The translations under genes and the position numbers were made by a program. The notes under the pieces were generated by a model, which searched no databases, was not told where the DNA came from, and saw only the letters and a list, made by a program, of their open reading frames with translations. DNA of 7,041 nucleotides from an uncultured Kineosporia sp. (lineage in GTDB: Bacteria > Actinomycetota > Actinomycetes > Actinomycetales > Kineosporiaceae), in NCBI GenBank assembly GCA_937859855.1, contig CALMAR010000205.1, forward strand, positions 3,964-11,004, read 5' to 3'. Shown piece by piece: positions 52-7,041 of this stretch; positions within the stretch are counted from its first letter, which is position 1, and each line of letters starts with the position of its first letter.

Positions 52-69
52 GACGGCGCGGGCGCCGTC
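52..69 (-). terminator. GC-rich hairpin at the end of rplI, possible weak terminator
   Basis: A perfect 7-bp inverted repeat, GACGGCG (52-58) and CGCCGTC (63-69), has a 4-nt loop and overlaps the rplI stop codon (68-70). No T-tract follows in the transcription direction. It could be a GC-only terminator of the type proposed for actinobacteria or simply chance in this composition. The rest of 1-51 holds nothing I can identify. Confidence 0.25.
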
Positions 70-514
70 AGGTGGAGACGACCGTGACGGCCACCTTCGC
101 CTGGACCTCCGGATGCAGTCGGACGTGCACGGTGTAGTCGCCGAGGTTCTTGATCGGCTGGGTCAGCTCGACCTTGCGGCGGTCGACCTGCATGCCGCCG
201 GCCTGGGCGATCGCCGAGGCGACGTCGGCGGGGGTGACCGCACCGAACAGGCGGCCCGAGGCACCCGCCTTGACCGGCAGCCGAACCGGCTTGGCCTCCA
301 GCGAGTCACGGACCCGCTGGGCCTCCTCGAGGCTGGCGAACTCGCGCGCCGTACGGGCCTTGCGGATCGAGGCGACCTGCTTCTCGCCGCCCTTGGTCCA
401 GGTCACGGCGAGGCCCCGCGGGACGAGGTAGTTGCGGCCGTAGCCGTCCTTGACCTCGACCACGTCGCCGGGGGTGCCCAGGCCGGTCACTTCCTGCGTG
501 AGGATCAGCTTCAT
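68..514 (-). CDS. rplI: 50S ribosomal protein L9
   Basis: L9 is a two-domain 50S protein that binds 23S rRNA near the base of the L1 stalk and helps keep the reading frame. The 148-aa product is the usual length. The N-terminal RNA-binding domain carries the L9 signature at residues 13-36 (GTPGDVVEV, then [13 protein letters not shown]). A charged connecting helix spans about residues 41-75, and the C-terminal domain starts near GRLFGAVT (residues 87-94). The ATG start is supported by AGGAGG at 524-529, 9 nt upstream. That Shine-Dalgarno sequence begins in the last base of the rpsR stop codon and the gap between the genes is 14 nt, so translation is probably coupled to rpsR. It is the last gene of the rpsF-ssb-rpsR-rplI operon visible here. 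Identification is firm. Confidence 0.98.
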
Positions 515-528
515 GACCTCTGCCCTCC

Positions 529-765
529 TCAGCGAGCGGAGCTGGAGTAGGGCAGCAGGGCCATCTCGCGGGCGTTCTTCACCGCACGGGCGATGTCACG
601 CTGCTGCTGCACGGTCACCCCGGTGACCCGGCGGGCACGGATCTTGCCGCGGTCGGAGATGAACTTCCGCAGCAGGGTGGTGTCCTTGTAGTCGACCAGC
701 TCGACCTTCGCGGCTCTGAGCGGGTTCTGCTTCTTCTTCGGCTTCCGCACGGGCGGCTTGGCCAT
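529..765 (-). CDS. rpsR: 30S ribosomal protein S18, cysteine-free (zinc-independent) form
   Basis: S18 binds the 30S platform as a partner of S6. The 78-aa product has the family core [17 protein letters not shown] (residues 26-42), then RARRVTG and a C-terminal ending [15 protein letters not shown]. The start ATG has AAGGAG at 774-779, 8 nt upstream. It lies 30 nt after ssb and 14 nt before rplI. The protein contains no cysteine at all. The CxxC near residue 13 and the later cysteine after RVTG, which bind zinc in the C+ forms of many actinobacteria, are replaced (QNPL and GVTV). This is therefore the C- form, even though it sits in the primary operon rather than with the extra zinc-starvation ribosomal genes. 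Family assignment is firm; zinc independence is inferred from the missing ligands. Confidence 0.98.
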
Positions 766-795
766 GATCTTTACTCCTTGGAATCAGTTCTGGGA

Positions 796-1326
796 TCAGA
801 AGGGCGGGTCGTCCTGGCTGCCGCTGAAGCCGCCACCGGACGGGCCGGTCGCCCATGGGTCGTCGGACTGCCCACCACCGCCACCGGACCCACCGGAGGC
901 ACCACCGGACCCGCCGCCGGAATAGCCGCCACCGCCGCCGGAGAACCCGCCGCCGCCGCCACGCTGGGTCTTGTTGACCTTCGCGGTCGCGTAGCGCAGC
1001 GACGGGCCGAGCTCGTCGACCTCCAGCTCGTTGACGGTGCGCTTCTCGCCTTCCTTGGTCTCGTACGACCGCGACTTCAGCCGGCCCGTGACGATCACGC
1101 GGGAGCCGCGCTGCAGCGACTCGGCGACGTTCTCCGCCGCGTCCCGCCACACGGAGCAGCGCATGAACAGCGTCTCGCCGTCCTTCCACTCGTTCGACTG
1201 CCGGTCGAACGTGCGCGGCGTGCTGGCCACGGTGAAGTTGGCCACCGCGGCGCCGGAGGGGGTGAACCGCAGTTCGGGGTCGTTGGTCAGGTTGCCGATG
1301 AGCGTCAGCGTCGTGTCGCCAGCCAT
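796..1326 (-). CDS. ssb: Single-stranded DNA-binding protein SSB
   Basis: SSB coats single-stranded DNA during replication, repair and recombination, and recruits partner enzymes through its C-terminal tip. The 176-aa product has an OB-fold at about residues 1-112: [17 protein letters not shown] at the start, W47 and W60 as likely DNA-stacking tryptophans, and [14 protein letters not shown] glycine-rich linker covers about residues 122-152, and the tip ends DDPPF, matching the conserved acidic D-D-x-P-F motif. The reading frame stays open upstream to 1725, but that extension runs through rpsF in another frame. The ATG at 1326 is chosen because the OB-fold begins there and GGAG (1333-1336) lies 6 nt upstream. 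The gap to rpsF is 32 nt and to rpsR 30 nt, consistent with one transcript. Confidence 0.98.
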
Positions 1327-1358
1327 ACGGGTCTCCGTGTGTTCGGTGGTGGTGAAGC

Positions 1359-1649
1359 TCAGCGCGCCTCGGGGCGCATCAACTTGGTGCGCAGCACCGA
1401 CTCGTTGAGGTTGAGCTGGCGGTCCAGCTCCTTGGCGTCGGCGGGCTCGGTGGTCATGTTGACCACCGCGTAGATGCCCTCGTGCTTCTTCTTGATCTCG
1501 TAGGCCAGGCGGCGCCGGCCCCAGATGTCGACCGTGTCCACCGAGCCGCCGCCCTTGCGGATGACGTTCAGGAACTTGTCCAACGACGGGGCGACGGTCC
1601 GCTCCTCGAGTTCCGGATCGAGAATGACCATCAGTTCGTACTGACGCAT
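1359..1649 (-). CDS. rpsF: 30S ribosomal protein S6
   Basis: S6 assembles with S18 on the central domain of 16S rRNA. The product begins [16 protein letters not shown] and contains the S6 signature [20 protein letters not shown] at about residues 41-60. The 96-aa length is normal for the family. A GTG at 1661 would add four residues (GTG GGT TCA CAC), but that GTG directly abuts the AGGAGG Shine-Dalgarno sequence (1661-1666) and cannot use it. ATG at 1649 lies 11 nt downstream of it and gives the conserved N-terminus. It is the first gene of the ribosomal operon and is preceded by a leader of about 100 nt that can fold over its ribosome binding site. Identification is firm. Confidence 0.98.
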
Positions 1650-1660
1650 GTGTGAACCCA

Positions 1661-1666
1661 CCTCCT
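1661..1666 (-). promoter_or_regulatory. Shine-Dalgarno sequence of rpsF
   Basis: A perfect AGGAGG on the minus strand, 11 nt before ATG 1649. It decides the rpsF start against the in-frame GTG at 1661. It is complementary to CCTCCT at 1698-1703 of the same leader. Confidence 0.85.
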
Positions 1667-1761: not shown

Positions 1762-1788
1762 ACCCTAGCCGGGACGGCGCCCGGTCAC
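1762..1788 (-). promoter_or_regulatory. Candidate promoter of the rpsF operon
   Basis: On the minus strand TAGGGT (1767-1762) fits the actinobacterial -10 pattern TANNNT. A TGAC-containing -35-like element, GTGACC (1788-1783), lies upstream with a short 15-nt spacer. A start near 1755 would give a leader of about 105 nt before rpsF. The -35 element overlaps the stop codon of the preceding 110-aa gene (1787-1785), so read-through from the envelope genes is also possible. The spacer is shorter than the ideal 17 nt, which lowers confidence. Confidence 0.4.
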
Positions 1789-2117
1789 CGAATCGGTATC
1801 CCCGACCGCCGACGCCGGCCGGCGACGAGGAGGACGAAGGGCTCCATCACCAGCAGCACGATCCACAACCCGAGGCCCAGGAAACCGTTGCCGGCCCAGA
1901 CCGCGAATCCGTGCGTCGGCGGGGCGTAGACGTGCGTGTCCTGCGGGGGTGGCACCCTCAGAGCCAGCCACACGAAGCACCCGGCGGAGGCCACCGGCAA
2001 CCCGGCCAGGACCAGCCACCGCGCCGCGCCTCCCGATCTGCCGTGCCACGCCCGCGTGGCGTGCACCGTCCAGAGCACCAGGCCCACGGCGGGCAGCACG
2101 AACGAGCTCACGGTCAC
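1785..2117 (-). CDS. Small integral membrane protein, family not recognised
   Basis: The product has 110 aa and I do not recognise its family. It shows three hydrophobic segments, at about residues 5-21, 34-53 and 76-99. A polar loop between the second and third (about 54-72) is rich in proline and histidine (PPPQDTHVYAPPTH). The C-terminus is basic (GRRRR, residues 100-104) and probably faces the cytoplasm. The start is uncertain: GTG at 2117 and GTG two codons later are both possible, and neither has a clear Shine-Dalgarno sequence. It begins about 31 nt after the 780-aa gene, so co-transcription is likely, and the rpsF promoter candidate overlaps its end. The frame reads as a genuine gene because its hydrophobic segments are coherent and the competing frames give arginine-rich shadows. 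The function is unknown. Confidence 0.7.
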   Translation of the reverse strand: MTVSSFVLPAVGLVLWTVHATRAWHGRSGGAARWLVLAGLPVASAGCFVWLALRVPPPQDTHVYAPPTHGFAVWAGNGFLGLGLWIVLLVMEPFVLLVAGRRRRSGIPIR

Positions 2118-2148: not shown

Positions 2149-4491
2149 TCATGCCACGAACTTGTTCAGGATCACGTCGGCCAGGGCGTTGGCCACGCCG
2201 TCGAAAAGGCTTGCGTGCAGCGAGGTCGCCACGCCGATCGGCACGTTCGTGCTCTTCAGCCACAAGGGTCCGCGGGCGGCGTCGAACTGCACGTCCGAGT
2301 TCTGCAGGAACACCTTCTTGAAGGCCGAGCGCATGGTGGCCGAGGAACCGAACCGGGCGGTGATGAACTCCTGGTACTTGCTCTTCGCGGCAGCGGAGGA
2401 CGCGTACCGGGCGGTCAGCGCATCGGAGACCTTCAGGCTGGACGTCTTGGTGATCGCCAGACCGACCACCATGGCATCCACGTCGGCCAGCATGTCACCG
2501 GCGGAGAAGGATTCCAGCCCGGCGTTGTTGCCGATCTGCCTGTAGGCGTAGGCGTAGGCGTTCGCGTCGGTGACACCGGCGTTGTAGCAGTCCGCACTCG
2601 CCGTGATCTGGTCGCCCGCCCAGCCGCCGAAGTCCACCATCGTCGGGGAGGACTTGTCCGAGGACAGCGAATGCGCGAAGACCGCGCCGAGGGACGCGCC
2701 GAAGTGCTGGATGTCGCACAGGTACCCGGTCTTCGGGCACCGCAGGCTGCCGGGAGCCGGCCGGCCCTTGGCCGCCGCGCAGGCCGCGATGAAGCCGCCG
2801 TCGATCCCGCCACTGACGGCGTCGAAGTCCAGACCGGCGTAACGGCCGTCGATGTAGGTGCGCAGGTACTGGGCGGTCAGCTGCGCCACCGTGTAGCCGG
2901 TGTGGCTGGACCGCCAGCTCGTGGCCTGCGCCTCCACCCACCTGACCCAGGTGAAGAAGGCGGCGTTCTGGTCGATCGGCGTCGTCAACGACGAGATGCC
3001 GGTGTCACGACCGGACTTGACGTCGTTGTCGACGTCGATCTGGCCGGCCGCTCCGGATGCCAGGGTGAGCGTCTTGATCTGGTCGAACGCCCAGTTGGCG
3101 GGCAGCGGGAAGCCGAGGTTTCCGCTGTAGCCGGTGGACATCCCGCTGACGAAACTGCTGATCGCACCGCCGGCGTCGCAGACCATGGAACAGATGTTCC
3201 GGCTGCCGTAGACCCCGATCGAGTAGCGGTTCCCCAGGCCCTCGAAGGAGGAGGCGATCGCCCGGAAGTACGGGATGATGTTGCTGCGCACCTCGTCGGC
3301 GGTGGCGTCGTAGTCGACGGCGAAGTAGATCAGCGATCCCCGGGGCAGGCCGAGCGCCAGCGCGTTGCTGTGTGCGGCCTGGGCCTGGGCCGTACCGTGC
3401 GCCTGGTCGAACAGGTTCAGCGCGTTGTTCGACTCCTGGTAGATCGGGAAGAACGTCAGGCCGTTGGCGAGGATCACCTGGATCTCCGTCGCCGTCAGGA
3501 TCTTGTCCGATCCACCGGCCAGGTAGCGTCCGACCGTCTGGTAACCGGCTGCCTTGACCGCCTTGGCCCGCGCGTCGTTCAGCGGCGTCCGGCAGTCGCA
3601 GGCCTTGCCCGCCCGGTCCGGATCACCGGTGGACACCAGCAGGCTGCACCAGGTCTGGTAGTCGCCCTTGCCGGTGGTCGGCAGCAGGCAGAACTGCTGG
3701 AAGGCCGTGGTGACGGCGGAGGTCGTGCTGGTGAACGTGGAACTGCTCCAGTCGACGCCGCTGCGGCCGTTGAAGATCAGCGCAGCCTTGAACAGCGTGA
3801 CGAAGTGGGTGGTGCCGGAGTCGGTCGTGCCCACGCCGACCGTGCCCTTGGTCTTCAGACCGTCCTTGGTGGCCGGCCCGAACACCCCGTTGGCGACGCC
3901 GTCCGCCAGACCGATCGAGTACTGGATCGCCAGCATCAGGCCCTGCTGGACGTTCCGGGAGAAGAACCCGTCGCAGGGCACGATCTGGAAGTCCTGCCGG
4001 GACACGTAGGTGAGGTTCATCCACCGCTGCACCGACCGGACCTGCGCGTCACCCCCGGCCAGCAGCACGTAGGCGTCCATGGTGAGCAGCGCCTTCATCT
4101 CCTTGGCGGAGACCGAATTGTTCGTCCCGGAGGCGATGAAACCCATGTCCGTCTTCCAGGCCACCAGCCCGGCCTGGGTCGGCGTCCCGAAGAGGCCGTC
4201 CTCGAAACCGCCGGAGTACCCCTTGCAGTAGAGCCCGGACTCGACGATGATCTTGACGTTCACGTTGGCCGTGGCCGCCGAGACCGGGCCGAAGGCAATC
4301 ATCTTCGCCATCGTGGTGTCGCCGAAATTGTCCGACAGCGCGGTGATCCCCAGCTCGTGCTGCAGACCCCGGGTCAGCGAGTGCATGGTGGCCCAGCCGG
4401 TGATCCCGTCCTCCGCGCACGCCACGTACCCGCTGACGTTCTTGTATGTGGCGTTCACCCACTGCTGGGCCTGCTGCACCCGCAGATCCAT
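2149..4491 (-). CDS. Multi-domain protein: four peptidoglycan-binding-like units, Rv2525c-like (DUF1906) glycoside-hydrolase-like domain, unknown C-terminal domain
   Basis: The product has 780 aa. Residues about 3-145 and 150-290 look like two copies of a tandem peptidoglycan-binding-like pair (VQQAQQWVNATY with DGITGW; VQRWMNLTY with DGFFSR and NGVFGPATKDGL). Residues about 298-500 match the Rv2525c/DUF1906 GH25-like barrel: CDCRTPL with D299, TVGRYLAGG (319-327), FFPIYQES (347-354), IYFAVDYDAT with D393 and D395, YSIGVYGS (423-430), WAFDQI (467-472) and GQIDVDND (483-490). Residues about 508-780 form a domain I cannot assign, with LCDIQHFGAS and MVDFGGWAGDQI as landmarks. ATG 4491 has GGGAG 6 nt upstream. 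No signal peptide or membrane segment is visible, although the domains suggest wall polymers as substrate and there are 13 cysteines. It lies 18 nt behind the Tat-substrate gene. Wall hydrolysis or binding is inferred, not shown. Confidence 0.9.
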   Translation of the reverse strand: MDLRVQQAQQWVNATYKNVSGYVACAEDGITGWATMHSLTRGLQHELGITALSDNFGDTTMAKMIAFGPVSAATANVNVKIIVESGLYCKGYSGGFEDGLFGTPTQAGLVAWKTDMGFIASGTNNSVSAKEMKALLTMDAYVLLAGGDAQVRSVQRWMNLTYVSRQDFQIVPCDGFFSRNVQQGLMLAIQYSIGLADGVANGVFGPATKDGLKTKGTVGVGTTDSGTTHFVTLFKAALIFNGRSGVDWSSSTFTSTTSAVTTAFQQFCLLPTTGKGDYQTWCSLLVSTGDPDRAGKACDCRTPLNDARAKAVKAAGYQTVGRYLAGGSDKILTATEIQVILANGLTFFPIYQESNNALNLFDQAHGTAQAQAAHSNALALGLPRGSLIYFAVDYDATADEVRSNIIPYFRAIASSFEGLGNRYSIGVYGSRNICSMVCDAGGAISSFVSGMSTGYSGNLGFPLPANWAFDQIKTLTLASGAAGQIDVDNDVKSGRDTGISSLTTPIDQNAAFFTWVRWVEAQATSWRSSHTGYTVAQLTAQYLRTYIDGRYAGLDFDAVSGGIDGGFIAACAAAKGRPAPGSLRCPKTGYLCDIQHFGASLGAVFAHSLSSDKSSPTMVDFGGWAGDQITASADCYNAGVTDANAYAYAYRQIGNNAGLESFSAGDMLADVDAMVVGLAITKTSSLKVSDALTARYASSAAAKSKYQEFITARFGSSATMRSAFKKVFLQNSDVQFDAARGPLWLKSTNVPIGVATSLHASLFDGVANALADVILNKFVA

Positions 4492-4509
4492 CGGACACTC
4501 CCTTGCGAC

Positions 4510-5562
4510 TCAGGCGAATCTGGCCCTGGACTCCGCGTCGTAGATGCTGTTCTGGTTGACCACCGACTCCAGGTACGTGGTCCGCTGGGTGCCGCGCCGC
4601 TCGGCCGGGCCGACCACGCCGACCATCGGGTGCTTGATGCCGGACAGGGCGCCGACCGGGTCGGCCGGGGTGACGGCGAGCCGCAGCTGGATCTGCTCCC
4701 CCATCGGCAGGTGCGCGTGCGCCGTCCACTCCAGCGCCCTGACCGCCGCCGTCGAGACGTCCTCGGCGGACCCGGACACGCGCCGGCCGCCCAGCGTCCG
4801 GGCGTCCTGCAGGGAGATCGACCGGACGACGTGCGGATCGGCCACCACCCGGACCCGGTAACCCGCGGGCACCGCTCCCGGGCCCGTCGAGCGCACGGAG
4901 GCGACCCGGGCACAGTAGGAACGGAAGCCGCCGCCCCACTCGAGCGGCTGCCACAGCACGCCCGCCTCGCAACCCCACGGCTGCCCGGCGACCGGCTCCG
5001 ACCGCCGTCCCCCGAGGTGGGCGCGCCTGCGCGTTCCGGCGCGCTGCGTCACCGAGGCCTGGACGTCGCCGTAGTCGCGCAGGATGTCGAGTGGATAGCG
5101 CCGCGGTCGCAGGTGGCCCACGACGACGGTGGTCGAGCCACCGGCCGGGATCGCTTCGTCCACCCGGACCTTCACAGTGGTCAGGCCGGTCTGCGGGTCC
5201 GTGACCACCGACTGTCTGGAGGCCGCCAGCGCCGTGGCGCCGTGAGCGGCCGTGACCGTCTGCGCCAGCTCGTACAGCCGGGGGTCGTACTCCAGGGCGA
5301 CGATCGACCCGGCCTCGATCGACGTGGCGCCCTTCACCGTGACGCCGAGATCGTTCGGTGCGATCACCGACTGGCTGGAACCGGGCACCAGCACGGCCGA
5401 TCGACCCGCAGTGGTGGGACCGACCGAGAGGTCGCCGTCCGCGGTCGCGGCGGCCTGGGCATGACTCTCGACACCCAGCGTCACGGTCGCCGCGAGGGCT
5501 CCCGCCGCTGCCCACCTGAGCACGGCCCGCCGTCCCACGGCCGCCGAGACCACGTCATCCAC
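4510..5562 (-). CDS. Tat-exported protein of unknown family
   Basis: The product has 350 aa from GTG 5562. That start is preferred because GAGG lies 7 nt upstream and it places a twin-arginine signal at the N-terminus: GRRAVLR (residues 10-16), a moderately hydrophobic stretch to about residue 31, and an AQA cleavage site ending at residue 37. An earlier in-frame ATG at 5643 would put 27 arginine- and proline-rich residues before it. The mature part is rich in valine, threonine and alanine with alternating hydrophobic residues (TSIEAGSIVALEYDP; TTVKVRVDEAIPAGGSTTVVV), which suggests beta-sandwich folds. It has two cysteines, C198 and C217, close enough for a disulfide. I recognise no catalytic motif. 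Only 18 nt separate it from the 780-aa gene. Tat export implies that it folds, or binds a partner, in the cytoplasm before transport. The molecular function is unknown. Confidence 0.85.
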   Translation of the reverse strand: MDDVVSAAVGRRAVLRWAAAGALAATVTLGVESHAQAAATADGDLSVGPTTAGRSAVLVPGSSQSVIAPNDLGVTVKGATSIEAGSIVALEYDPRLYELAQTVTAAHGATALAASRQSVVTDPQTGLTTVKVRVDEAIPAGGSTTVVVGHLRPRRYPLDILRDYGDVQASVTQRAGTRRRAHLGGRRSEPVAGQPWGCEAGVLWQPLEWGGGFRSYCARVASVRSTGPGAVPAGYRVRVVADPHVVRSISLQDARTLGGRRVSGSAEDVSTAAVRALEWTAHAHLPMGEQIQLRLAVTPADPVGALSGIKHPMVGVVGPAERRGTQRTTYLESVVNQNSIYDAESRARFA

Positions 5563-5667: not shown

Positions 5668-6144
5668 TCAGTTCGGCCAGCCCGAGGGCAGCCTGACGCA
5701 GCCGCTGTGCGGCGGGGTGACCGAGTCGCTGATGTAGGTGAAACGCGGCCAGAGCAGCACCTTGCGGGTGTTCGGCCCGAACTCGCCGTCGGCGGTGACG
5801 TGCTCCTTGCCCTGGGCGTACTTCAGCGCACTCTTGGTGGCGGGCCCGAAGGCGCCGTCCGCGGAGATGCTCCGGCTGTAGCAGTACTTCAGCGCCCACT
5901 GCAGGGACTTGACCGGGTGCGGCAGGTCGTCGTTCTTCGCGTCGGTCTGGCCGCTGGCCATGGTGCACCAGCCGTCGGCACGGACGGACCCGAACGGGAT
6001 CGAGATGTAGTACGACCCCGAGTTGTCCCAGAAGAGCGTGTCGCACTTCTTCAGCGCCGCCGCCTGTGCGGGACCGGCGATCGCGACCAGCGATGCCAGC
6101 GACAGCAACGCGGCGATGAGCAGCGGCAAGGACTTACGCGTCAC
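5668..6144 (-). CDS. Secreted peptidoglycan-binding-like protein
   Basis: The product has 158 aa from GTG 6144. That start has an AGGGGG Shine-Dalgarno sequence (6150-6155) 5 nt upstream and gives a classic Sec signal: TRKS, a hydrophobic core at residues 6-23, then PAQA with cleavage after A28. An ATG at 6171 in the same frame lacks a ribosome binding site and would spoil the signal. The mature chain has a peptidoglycan-binding-like fold (PG_binding_1 type) at about residues 76-134. It shows VKSLQWALKY, then two DGxFGPxT turns: DGAFGPAT (97-104) and DGEFGPNT (119-126). Four cysteines (34, 60, 88, 149) could form two disulfides outside the cell. There is no catalytic domain, so it is probably a wall-binding or accessory protein rather than a hydrolase. 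It appears to start the envelope gene run. Confidence 0.88.
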   Translation of the reverse strand: MTRKSLPLLIAALLSLASLVAIAGPAQAAALKKCDTLFWDNSGSYYISIPFGSVRADGWCTMASGQTDAKNDDLPHPVKSLQWALKYCYSRSISADGAFGPATKSALKYAQGKEHVTADGEFGPNTRKVLLWPRFTYISDSVTPPHSGCVRLPSGWPN

Positions 6145-6173
6145 CTGAACCCCCTGAGGCGTGTGCACCATCC

Positions 6174-6275: not shown

Positions 6276-7041
6276 TCAGGCCGTGTAGTGCCGGCCGTGC
6301 TGCGCCGTGGATCCCCATCCGAGCGGGCTCGGTGCCAGCCCGGCGGCGAGCAGGTCGCCCCGGTATCGGCGGACCGCCTGCACCCCGATCCAGGCGATCC
6401 CGGCCAGCCGCGCGATCAGCAGGAACAGGTAGAGGGACGGCGGCAGCCCACGGGTGGGCGTGGTGTCCGCGCCGATGAAGAACCAGACCCCGACGAAGTA
6501 GGCGCATTCGGTACCGGCCCAGATCAGGTGGTCCCGCCAGGCCAGCCCGGACAGCGCGATCAGTGGCAGCAGCAGCAGGCTGGTCTGCACCGGCAGGGAC
6601 GTCGCCGACACCAGCGCAGCGCACAACAGGGCCAGCGCGAGCGGCGCCAGCACCGCAGGCGGCAGGGGCGAGGGGGCCGCGGATTCCGGTGACGGGTCCA
6701 GGGCCGGCCACACGCCGTCCGCCTCCGGGTCCTCGGGCTCCGCCGCCGGGTCCTCGGGCTCCGCCGCCGGGGGGACGGCCGTCAGCCGGACCACCGCGGC
6801 GGCCAGCGCCAGCAGCAGCAGGATCGACAGCACCGCGGCGACCCGCCCGGTCAGCGGCTGCAGGTTGAACAGCCAGCCGAACAGGCCGACCACCAGCCGG
6901 GCCGGCCAGGAGTCCGGGGGGTTCGGCCGGGACCGGCCCAGCAGTTGCGGCAGCAACCACAACGAGCCGTACCCCGGTGGCGCCGAGCGCCAGTCGCCGA
7001 ACCCGCCGTCGCTCCACCGGAACAACCCCCGCCCGGCGCGC
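6276..7041 (-). CDS. GT87/DUF2029-like polytopic membrane protein, C-terminal part (5' end beyond the window)
   Basis: About 255 codons are open to the window edge. The first start-like codon inside (TTG 7025) has no good Shine-Dalgarno sequence, so the true start is probably outside. Counting from that TTG, hydrophobic segments lie at about residues 41-54, 61-80, 124-142, 147-160, 175-185 and 197-216. The run LLLLPLIALSGLAWRDHLIW, then ExxYFxxVWFFIG and a final helix ending in QAVRRYRG, resembles the C-terminus of the actinobacterial GT87 (DUF2029) proteins found upstream of rpsF (Rv0051-like). Members are polyprenyl-phosphate-dependent mannosyltransferase-like enzymes of the cell envelope. 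The catalytic N-terminal part is not visible, so activity is inferred from family only. An unusual acidic proline-rich loop (about residues 85-122) includes a tandem AAEPEDP repeat. Confidence 0.75.
   Translation of the reverse strand, partial: RAGRGLFRWSDGGFGDWRSAPPGYGSLWLLPQLLGRSRPNPPDSWPARLVVGLFGWLFNLQPLTGRVAAVLSILLLLALAAAVVRLTAVPPAAEPEDPAAEPEDPEADGVWPALDPSPESAAPSPLPPAVLAPLALALLCAALVSATSLPVQTSLLLLPLIALSGLAWRDHLIWAGTECAYFVGVWFFIGADTTPTRGLPPSLYLFLLIARLAGIAWIGVQAVRRYRGDLLAAGLAPSPLGWGSTAQHGRHYTA
6725..6766 (-). repeat. Tandem 21-bp duplication coding for repeated AAEPEDP
   Basis: Two identical, adjacent 21-bp units (6725-6745 and 6746-6766) lie inside the GT87-like gene. In frame they encode seven residues repeated as AAEPEDPAAEPEDP, in an acidic loop between membrane segments. 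Because the unit is a multiple of three, copy-number change would lengthen or shorten the loop without a frameshift. Confidence 0.85.

Follow-up and report, generated by a model that had tools for sequence, protein, structure and literature searches.

In a 7,041-nucleotide (nt) stretch of DNA from an uncultured Kineosporia sp. (contig CALMAR010000205.1; hereafter the window), a gene for a wall-targeting protein of 780 amino acids (aa) without an export signal (the cargo) lies beside a gene whose product begins with a twin-arginine translocation (Tat) signal (the carrier). The cargo is likely a Tat hitchhiker, the passenger in a two-gene pair with this neighbour (4510-5562). The passenger would fold in the cytoplasm and bind the Tat-tagged carrier, the complex of the two would cross the membrane through Tat, and outside, the peptidoglycan (PG)-binding units of the passenger would hold its glycoside-hydrolase-like barrel on the peptidoglycan; we infer that the two proteins form a complex and are exported together, and likewise the attachment to the wall and any lytic action. 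Hitchhiking is favoured because the cargo has no signal, its neighbour is Tat-tagged and the pairing is near-universal among actinobacterial relatives, because the carrier is missing both where a cis Tat signal is present and where no TatC was found, and because the solved barrel relative Rv2525c is a Tat substrate and the tyrosinase-type passenger MelC2 offers a precedent. An earlier note on this DNA had placed the cargo at 2149..4491, which is correct, with the open reading frame (ORF) on the minus strand. Its description of a wall-directed but signal-less protein also stands, and delivery by a partner is the best of the three routes that it offered, the partner being the neighbouring gene, which it left unnamed. 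The features of the pair are as follows.

2149..4491, minus strand: cargo, 780-aa wall-targeting protein without an export signal (ATG at 4491, stop at 2149)
3637..4485, minus strand: PG-binding-like part, four units of three helices each at residues 3-67, 77-135, 149-215 and 230-285 (AlphaFold2 model; PF01471)
3019..3561, minus strand: Rv2525c-like glycoside-hydrolase-like barrel, residues 311-491 (PF08924, Foldseek, invariant D393 and D395)
2155..2970, minus strand: all-helical C-terminal region, residues 508-779 (AlphaFold2 model)
4510..5562, minus strand: carrier of the c1 family, 350 aa with a Tat signal (GTG start at 5562), directly upstream of the cargo
5437..5562, minus strand: signal peptide of the carrier, Tat type (motif VGRRAVLR, hydrophobic WAAAGALAATVTLG, then AQA before the likely cleavage site)
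4492..4512, minus strand: carrier-cargo gap of 18 nt (carrier stop TGA at 4512-4510, in frame with the cargo ATG)

Residues 1-60 of the cargo contain no uncharged hydrophobic 12-mer (best mean Kyte-Doolittle value 0.76) and no Tat motif; signal calls, here and below, are detections of a motif plus a hydrophobic stretch (the Tat detector). An in-frame TGA is located 18 nt 5' of the cargo ATG with no start codon between them, which rules out a longer cargo start bearing a signal peptide, and the sequence AGGGAG 5' of the ATG resembles a ribosome-binding site. The N-terminal scan and the upstream stop thus bear out the missing export signal reported in the earlier note, and the cargo does not have a Tat signal of its own as Rv2525c does. 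Among the 120 homologue rows listed of 2281 (query included), 109 extend at most one residue ahead of the query's M1 (a few of these being shorter entries that start later), none has a Tat-like N-terminus, and the hydrophobic stretch found within the first 70 residues of two lies inside a conserved domain. Together with the upstream stop, these signal-less N-termini indicate, at the level of sequence, that the missing signal is characteristic of the family and does not stem from a wrongly annotated start. A conserved upstream start adding a signal peptide, named beforehand as the observation that would speak against the claim, is absent in the window's lineage, although cis Tat signals do occur in four intact relatives and five short forms.

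The GH25-like barrel of the DUF1906 family that had been read in the cargo is recovered both by PF08924 (residues 311-491, E 5e-48; 164.3 bits versus a curated cutoff of 27.2) and by the fold of solved members. A Foldseek search with the AlphaFold2 model of the cargo (mean predicted local distance difference test, pLDDT, of 91.3 from a 52-row alignment; unit bounds approximate) returned Rv2525c structures at the top (4PMR, 4PMN, 4PMQ and 4PMO, template-modelling score by target 0.72-0.75) and also 1SFS, in agreement with a profile search of PDB sequences. All five matches of the whole model at E <= 0.001 are barrel-family entries, and none was obtained for the helical C-terminus. Within the FAVDYD stretch, D393 and D395 are invariant (52 rows), suggesting that an active site may be kept. 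All four of the proposed PG-binding-like units are present in the model, but Pfam does not see every one: PF01471 exceeds its cutoff only as a whole-protein score, with the best stretch at residues 251-281. PF27189, an entry newer than the Pfam copy scanned, is found on most of the homologues listed.

The carrier begins with MDDVVSAAVGRRAVLRWAAAGALAATVTLGVESHAQAAA, a twin-arginine type signal with RR at residues 11-12, and R11 and R12 are invariant among c1 proteins in 14/14 rows of one alignment and 19/19 of another. The carrier appears to start at GTG 5562, close to where the clustered database entry P0126 and the aligned relatives begin, which makes a 377-aa product from ATG 5643 less likely. 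Residues 1-42 of the carrier model have pLDDT under 50, and the mature carrier is modelled as all-beta, probably with two beta-sandwich domains. Fold searches (Foldseek, VIA-align) yielded many unrelated beta-sandwich proteins, including integrins, streptococcal adhesins and pilins, and nothing specific; the best match of c1 to PDB sequences has an E of only 0.41, and a database search with the carrier returned six proteins, its own entry included. A related contig, L023 (103305 bases), harbors two cargo genes with a c1 carrier beside each. In the window, carrier and cargo share a reading frame, with one TGA and 18 nt between them, which is not the case in L023.

The pairing was surveyed in 22 loci fetched via a sequence pattern and 98 loci from genomes matched by the cargo profile, which found 13/394 genomes of one class, 8/249 of a Bacillota phylum (six barrel-only) and 43/250, 30/249 and 11/199 genomes of three families. 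These loci contain 127 cargo ORFs, with 124 listed at >=250 bits. Twelve of the 124 lacked an N-terminus or scored <480 bits and were set aside (L017 twice, L018, L019, L021, L024, L032, L117-L119 and L120 twice); among them, a c1 carrier accompanies L018, L019 and L024, Tat signals are present in L117-L120, and no carrier is seen at L017, L021 and L032. After L079 was dropped as the same locus as L014, 111 distinct intact cargo ORFs remained. Partial matches in G160, G269:C4, G395, G861:C221, G821, G1167 and G1258 and the six barrel-only Bacillota matches were left out. The scan for cis signals covered the whole upstream open frame where this had at least 60 residues.

Four of the 111 intact relatives carry a cis Tat signal (L011, L041, L063 and L116), one has a Sec-type start (L013) and 106 have no signal, with no further Tat signal in the long upstream open frames. 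A same-strand carrier with a domain edge within 680 bp accompanies 102 of the 106 signal-less relatives, all 102 from actinobacterial samples; 23 of these carriers belong to the window's family, c1, and 79 to another family, c2, whose members have about 200 aa. The Tat detector is positive in 101 of the 102 carriers, and in the remaining one, at L114, the motif LSRRSILRGALVVSAVAA (LSRRSILRG plus a hydrophobic stretch) is plain by eye. As a control, the same detector is positive in 27 of 322 genes located three or more places off. The carrier is upstream of the cargo in 8 loci and downstream in 94, so that adjacency is retained on either side. The two families are alignable over the signal peptide only, and therefore look like different proteins in the same place beside the same cargo; the RR pair is invariant in 14/14 c2 rows. 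Genome-wide, one family has seven c1 copies, all seven beside cargo, in 6 of its 250 genomes surveyed, and c2 was found in 36 of 249 genomes of another family, in which 29 of the 30 cargo genomes have c2 and the thirtieth has c1. Because c2 also pairs with cargo ending within 21 residues after residue 505 (17/79 c2 loci), it probably docks onto the PG-binding units or the barrel. No Pfam match above cutoff was obtained for the eight c2 carriers scanned, and a match of c2 to the M15 peptidase ChiX is weak (E 0.034). The pair displays in sequence the marks of a Tat hitchhiker, namely a signal-less passenger, a twin-arginine partner and genes encoded together.

Where the cargo has its own signal, the carrier is missing. 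None was found beside cis-Tat cargo (0/4 loci), at the four loci of Microbacteriaceae (the family of the L010 genome) that encode five cis-Tat short forms, or at L013 with its Sec-type start. Neither signal nor carrier is present in L012, L020 and L036 (Bacillota) or in L016 (Atopobiaceae). TatC was found in 5 of the 11 genomes tested (four actinomycete genomes and the Atopobiaceae genome) and in 0/6 of the Bacillota genomes with family members. In L020, a PF05105 holin (E 1.4e-27) is encoded just upstream of the cargo, which ends in a muramidase domain, together with a further gene with only weak sigma or helix-turn-helix matches; in L012, a gene with a Sigma70_r4 match (1.6e-10) lies ahead of the cargo.

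Several observations weigh against hitchhiking. The absence of TatC in Bacillota derives partly from draft genomes: the L021 genome measures only about 1.0 Mb and its contig is truncated, and the L017 copy, also among the six tested, is split in two frames, making the absence weak for both. L016 has TatC but no c1 or c2 carrier. Signal-less Bacillota members without a c1 or c2 carrier indicate that the protein can exist without a Tat-hitchhiking route, and a missing signal would also fit a cytoplasmic function. Matches to c2 without listed cargo occur in seven genomes, four near full length and three partial or weak; of the near-full-length copies, those in L121 and L122 have no cargo, and those in L123 and L124 lie beside cargo remnants. 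Among plasmid-borne actinobacterial loci, 5 of the 10 read have no carrier (three from Curtobacterium, one from S. clavuligerus and one from a Streptomyces with insertion sequence (IS) elements behind the cargo). Finally, independent evolutionary events are few: a tree of the first 505 residues shows only four changes among the labels c1, c2, own and none, and the pairing has therefore persisted through long divergence after few origins.

Separately from this weighing, L123 and L124 read as carriers outliving their passenger, with an ORF beside the c2 gene of L123 that looks by eye like a transposase, and L016 contains two opposite-strand genes about 3 kb off that begin with Tat-like signals, a possible third carrier type.

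The plasmid records read were 6/22 from Streptomyces, 3/3 from Curtobacterium, one from Streptantibioticus and six from Bacillota. A separate c2 carrier is present in 4 of the 10 actinobacterial loci, with L137 being the replicon of L095 and already counted, and on a Streptomyces plasmid a 495-aa ORF (L143:2995-4482) matches both the cargo and the c2 profiles, as if a deletion had fused the genes. Altogether, 537 plasmid records match the family, including 384 from Enterococcus and 70 from Lactiplantibacillus, and copies on plasmids are common in Bacillota, including Lactobacillales. The six Bacillota plasmid loci read (L128, L131-L134 and L136, the last of which begins like L128) are signal-less and show no c1 or c2 match in the stretch read. 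Some copies on plasmids of E. faecalis (L132), L. plantarum (L128 and L136) and Listeria (L133) lie near integrase, toxin-antitoxin, SIR2 or TIR genes.

The alternative that survives best, though an unlikely one, is that the two proteins leave separately: the Tat protein would be exported alone, the wall protein would be released by lysis in the manner of a bacteriolysin or autolysin, and both would act together outside. The nearest relative with known biology among those encountered is a DUF1906 protein on a plasmid of E. faecalis, which aligns with cargo residues 1-506 (39% identity over 528 columns, E 1e-100) and has no signal peptide. Its gene is neighboured by genes for a holin and for an SH3-repeat enzyme resembling BacL1 and by one annotated bacL2, a layout in keeping with Bac41; the DUF1906 gene is probably bacA, given the gene order and the length. 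The bacteriolysin Bac41 is described as having two active proteins, BacL1 and BacA (PMC9951850, PMC8532689), which are reported to be secreted individually and to act together (PMC9951850). A signal-less relative in a Bac41-type locus with a holin gene therefore speaks for separate exits, as do the carrier-less plasmid copies and the Bacillota copies without c1 or c2. However, the cis-Tat relatives have no partner (0/4 loci and five short forms), where a functional partner would be expected to remain necessary, and the role of partner is filled by two families alike over the signal only, both of which argue against separate exits. The window resembles the Bac41-type locus in its DUF1906 homology and its lack of a signal peptide, the Bac41 proteins being described as wall-active (PMC9951850, PMC8532689), but it has a Tat carrier instead and a different C-terminus. 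No BacL1-type endopeptidase or holin was found among the ORFs and Pfam matches of the window, in which 7 kb is visible.

Two further genes of the window flank the pair.

1785..2117, minus strand: small membrane protein with two predicted transmembrane segments, 31 nt after the cargo (transmembrane prediction)
5668..6171, minus strand: small secreted protein of Sec type, upstream of the carrier and with a single PG-binding domain (PF01471 6.8e-11, hydrophobic N-terminus)

The secreted protein is an optional member of the cassette, and small transmembrane genes recur near relatives of the cargo without forming one conserved family; a small membrane gene beside the cargo in L043 (4248-4802) matches VanZ (E 3.7e-17). 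Downstream of the cassette, the ORFs in 68-1661 (minus strand) look by eye like rplI, rpsR, ssb and rpsF, and a TTG-start ORF at 6276-7025 (minus strand) has about four hydrophobic segments and no Pfam match, its frame being open to the window end so that it may be longer.

A holin-like exit, in which the small membrane protein at 1785-2117 would form a pore for the cargo, is improbable. It would accord with the PF05105 holin upstream of the cargo in L020, with the holin of the Bac41-type locus, with the enrichment of small transmembrane genes near the passenger (37/290 nearby same-strand genes versus 6/271 farther genes), and with the discussion in PMC9527704 of clostridial export through holins in place of Tat. 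Nevertheless, only 36 of the 111 loci have a small transmembrane gene, and the window's own protein has no relative in 22 loci by tblastn and no Pfam match. As a universal holin, the small transmembrane gene is ruled out as a general rule by the same count (36/111). A phage endolysin is likewise not supported: the neighbours in the window read by eye as ribosomal-protein and ssb genes, and 50,697 phage records gave one match at E 1e-15; no holin or phage genes lie near the cargo in the 7-kb window, and viral contigs searched with P0121 gave no match.

Least probable of all is a cytoplasmic protein with its wall-like domains used otherwise, for example in spores or the turnover of recycled muropeptides, which would suit the missing signal, the near-universal Cys89 and Cys434 and the carrier-less Bacillota copies but conflicts with the cis Tat signals of nine relatives, with PG-binding units joined to a barrel whose solved relative leaves through Tat, and with the listing of the Bacillus DUF1906 protein YbfG in pellicle and cell-free liquid, where lysis is possible (PMC12020853).

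The 13 cysteines counted earlier in the cargo are all present (25, 89, 173, 268, 282, 298, 300, 434, 438, 571, 585, 592 and 635), but the disulfide argument built on them fails. The three close pairs named (268/282, 434/438 and 585/592) exist in the cargo but are not conserved and do not co-occur: Cys438, 571, 585, 592 and 635 are present in 3, 21, 6, 13 and 16 of the 120 listed rows, respectively, Cys434 is found in 120/120 versus 3 for Cys438, and phi is 0.15 for 268/282 and 0.04 for 585/592. Near-invariance is limited to Cys89 (119/120) and Cys434, which belong to different domains. The named pairs therefore lend no support to an extracellular site.

Across species, the conserved module is joined to varied ends, including Amidase_2, Lipase_3, Muramidase and RHS repeats. 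Amidase_2 scores above cutoff in L078 and L065 and below cutoff in L072 and L076; L072, L076 and L078 were scanned as part of a set of eight relatives with long N-terminal frames. In L013 (7521-14141), a Clostridiales protein of 2207 aa combines a hydrophobic N-terminus, the PG-binding/DUF1906 module, DUF6531 and RHS repeats and is polymorphic-toxin-like, and in L016 the Atopobiaceae relative carries a class 3 lipase domain in fusion; this relative and the Tat-like starts nearby are noted together at 4500-5555 (minus strand) and 7992-10712. The Bac41 relative and the varied effector ends suggest that the family is used against other bacteria, and remodelling of the producer's own wall fits as well. 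A broader scheme of modular export can be offered tentatively: a conserved signal-less module of four PG-binding units and the barrel would be combined with exchangeable ends (amidase, muramidase, lipase, RHS, helical) and an exchangeable exit (two carriers, cis Tat or Sec, a holin where Tat is missing), and the actinobacterial members would possibly be Tat-hitchhiking relatives of Bac41 directed against bacteria.

Among known Tat systems, the closest in layout is that of Streptomyces, in which signal-less MelC2 is described as hitchhiking on Tat-tagged MelC1 (PMC2758597). As in the window, the genes are adjacent, the large active protein is signal-less and the helper bears the Tat signal (PMC2758597). 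However, MelC1 also loads copper, whereas the window pair has no evident cofactor, a multidomain wall-directed passenger and two carrier families. Rv2525c of M. tuberculosis, reported to be exported by Tat (PMC4038636), shares the PF08924 barrel (4PMN and others) but has its own Tat signal, and its solved chains of 202-234 residues leave little beyond the barrel; in comparison, the window protein adds PG-binding units and has a carrier in place of its own signal. In HybO/HybC of E. coli hydrogenase-2 and in PaoABC, the signal also resides on one subunit and the partners are co-exported (PMC4273604), but these are cofactor-bearing redox enzymes of a Gram-negative host. According to the same source, a handful of Tat hitchhiker pairs have been described, and those it names are redox enzymes (PMC4273604). 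Among the papers listed in the literature searches, with subscription papers outside the scope, no title or opening of an abstract describes the cargo-carrier pairing. What would be new here is a hitchhiker pair whose passenger targets the wall and has no evident cofactor, served by two carrier families alike only in their signal.

A 2024 study of tail-anchored Tat proteins states that signal-less tail-anchored proteins exported with Tat partners would be hard to find bioinformatically (PMC10924467). The present family, which is signal-less and not tail-anchored, shows a Tat partner in 102 of the 106 sampled loci, and its natural replacements (a cis signal, a holin) make the hitchhiking idea directly testable. 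If true, hitchhiking would provide a gene-neighbour rule for predicting the secretion of signal-less wall proteins, and it would explain the exit of widespread wall-targeting proteins that lack a signal and are easily misread as cytoplasmic.

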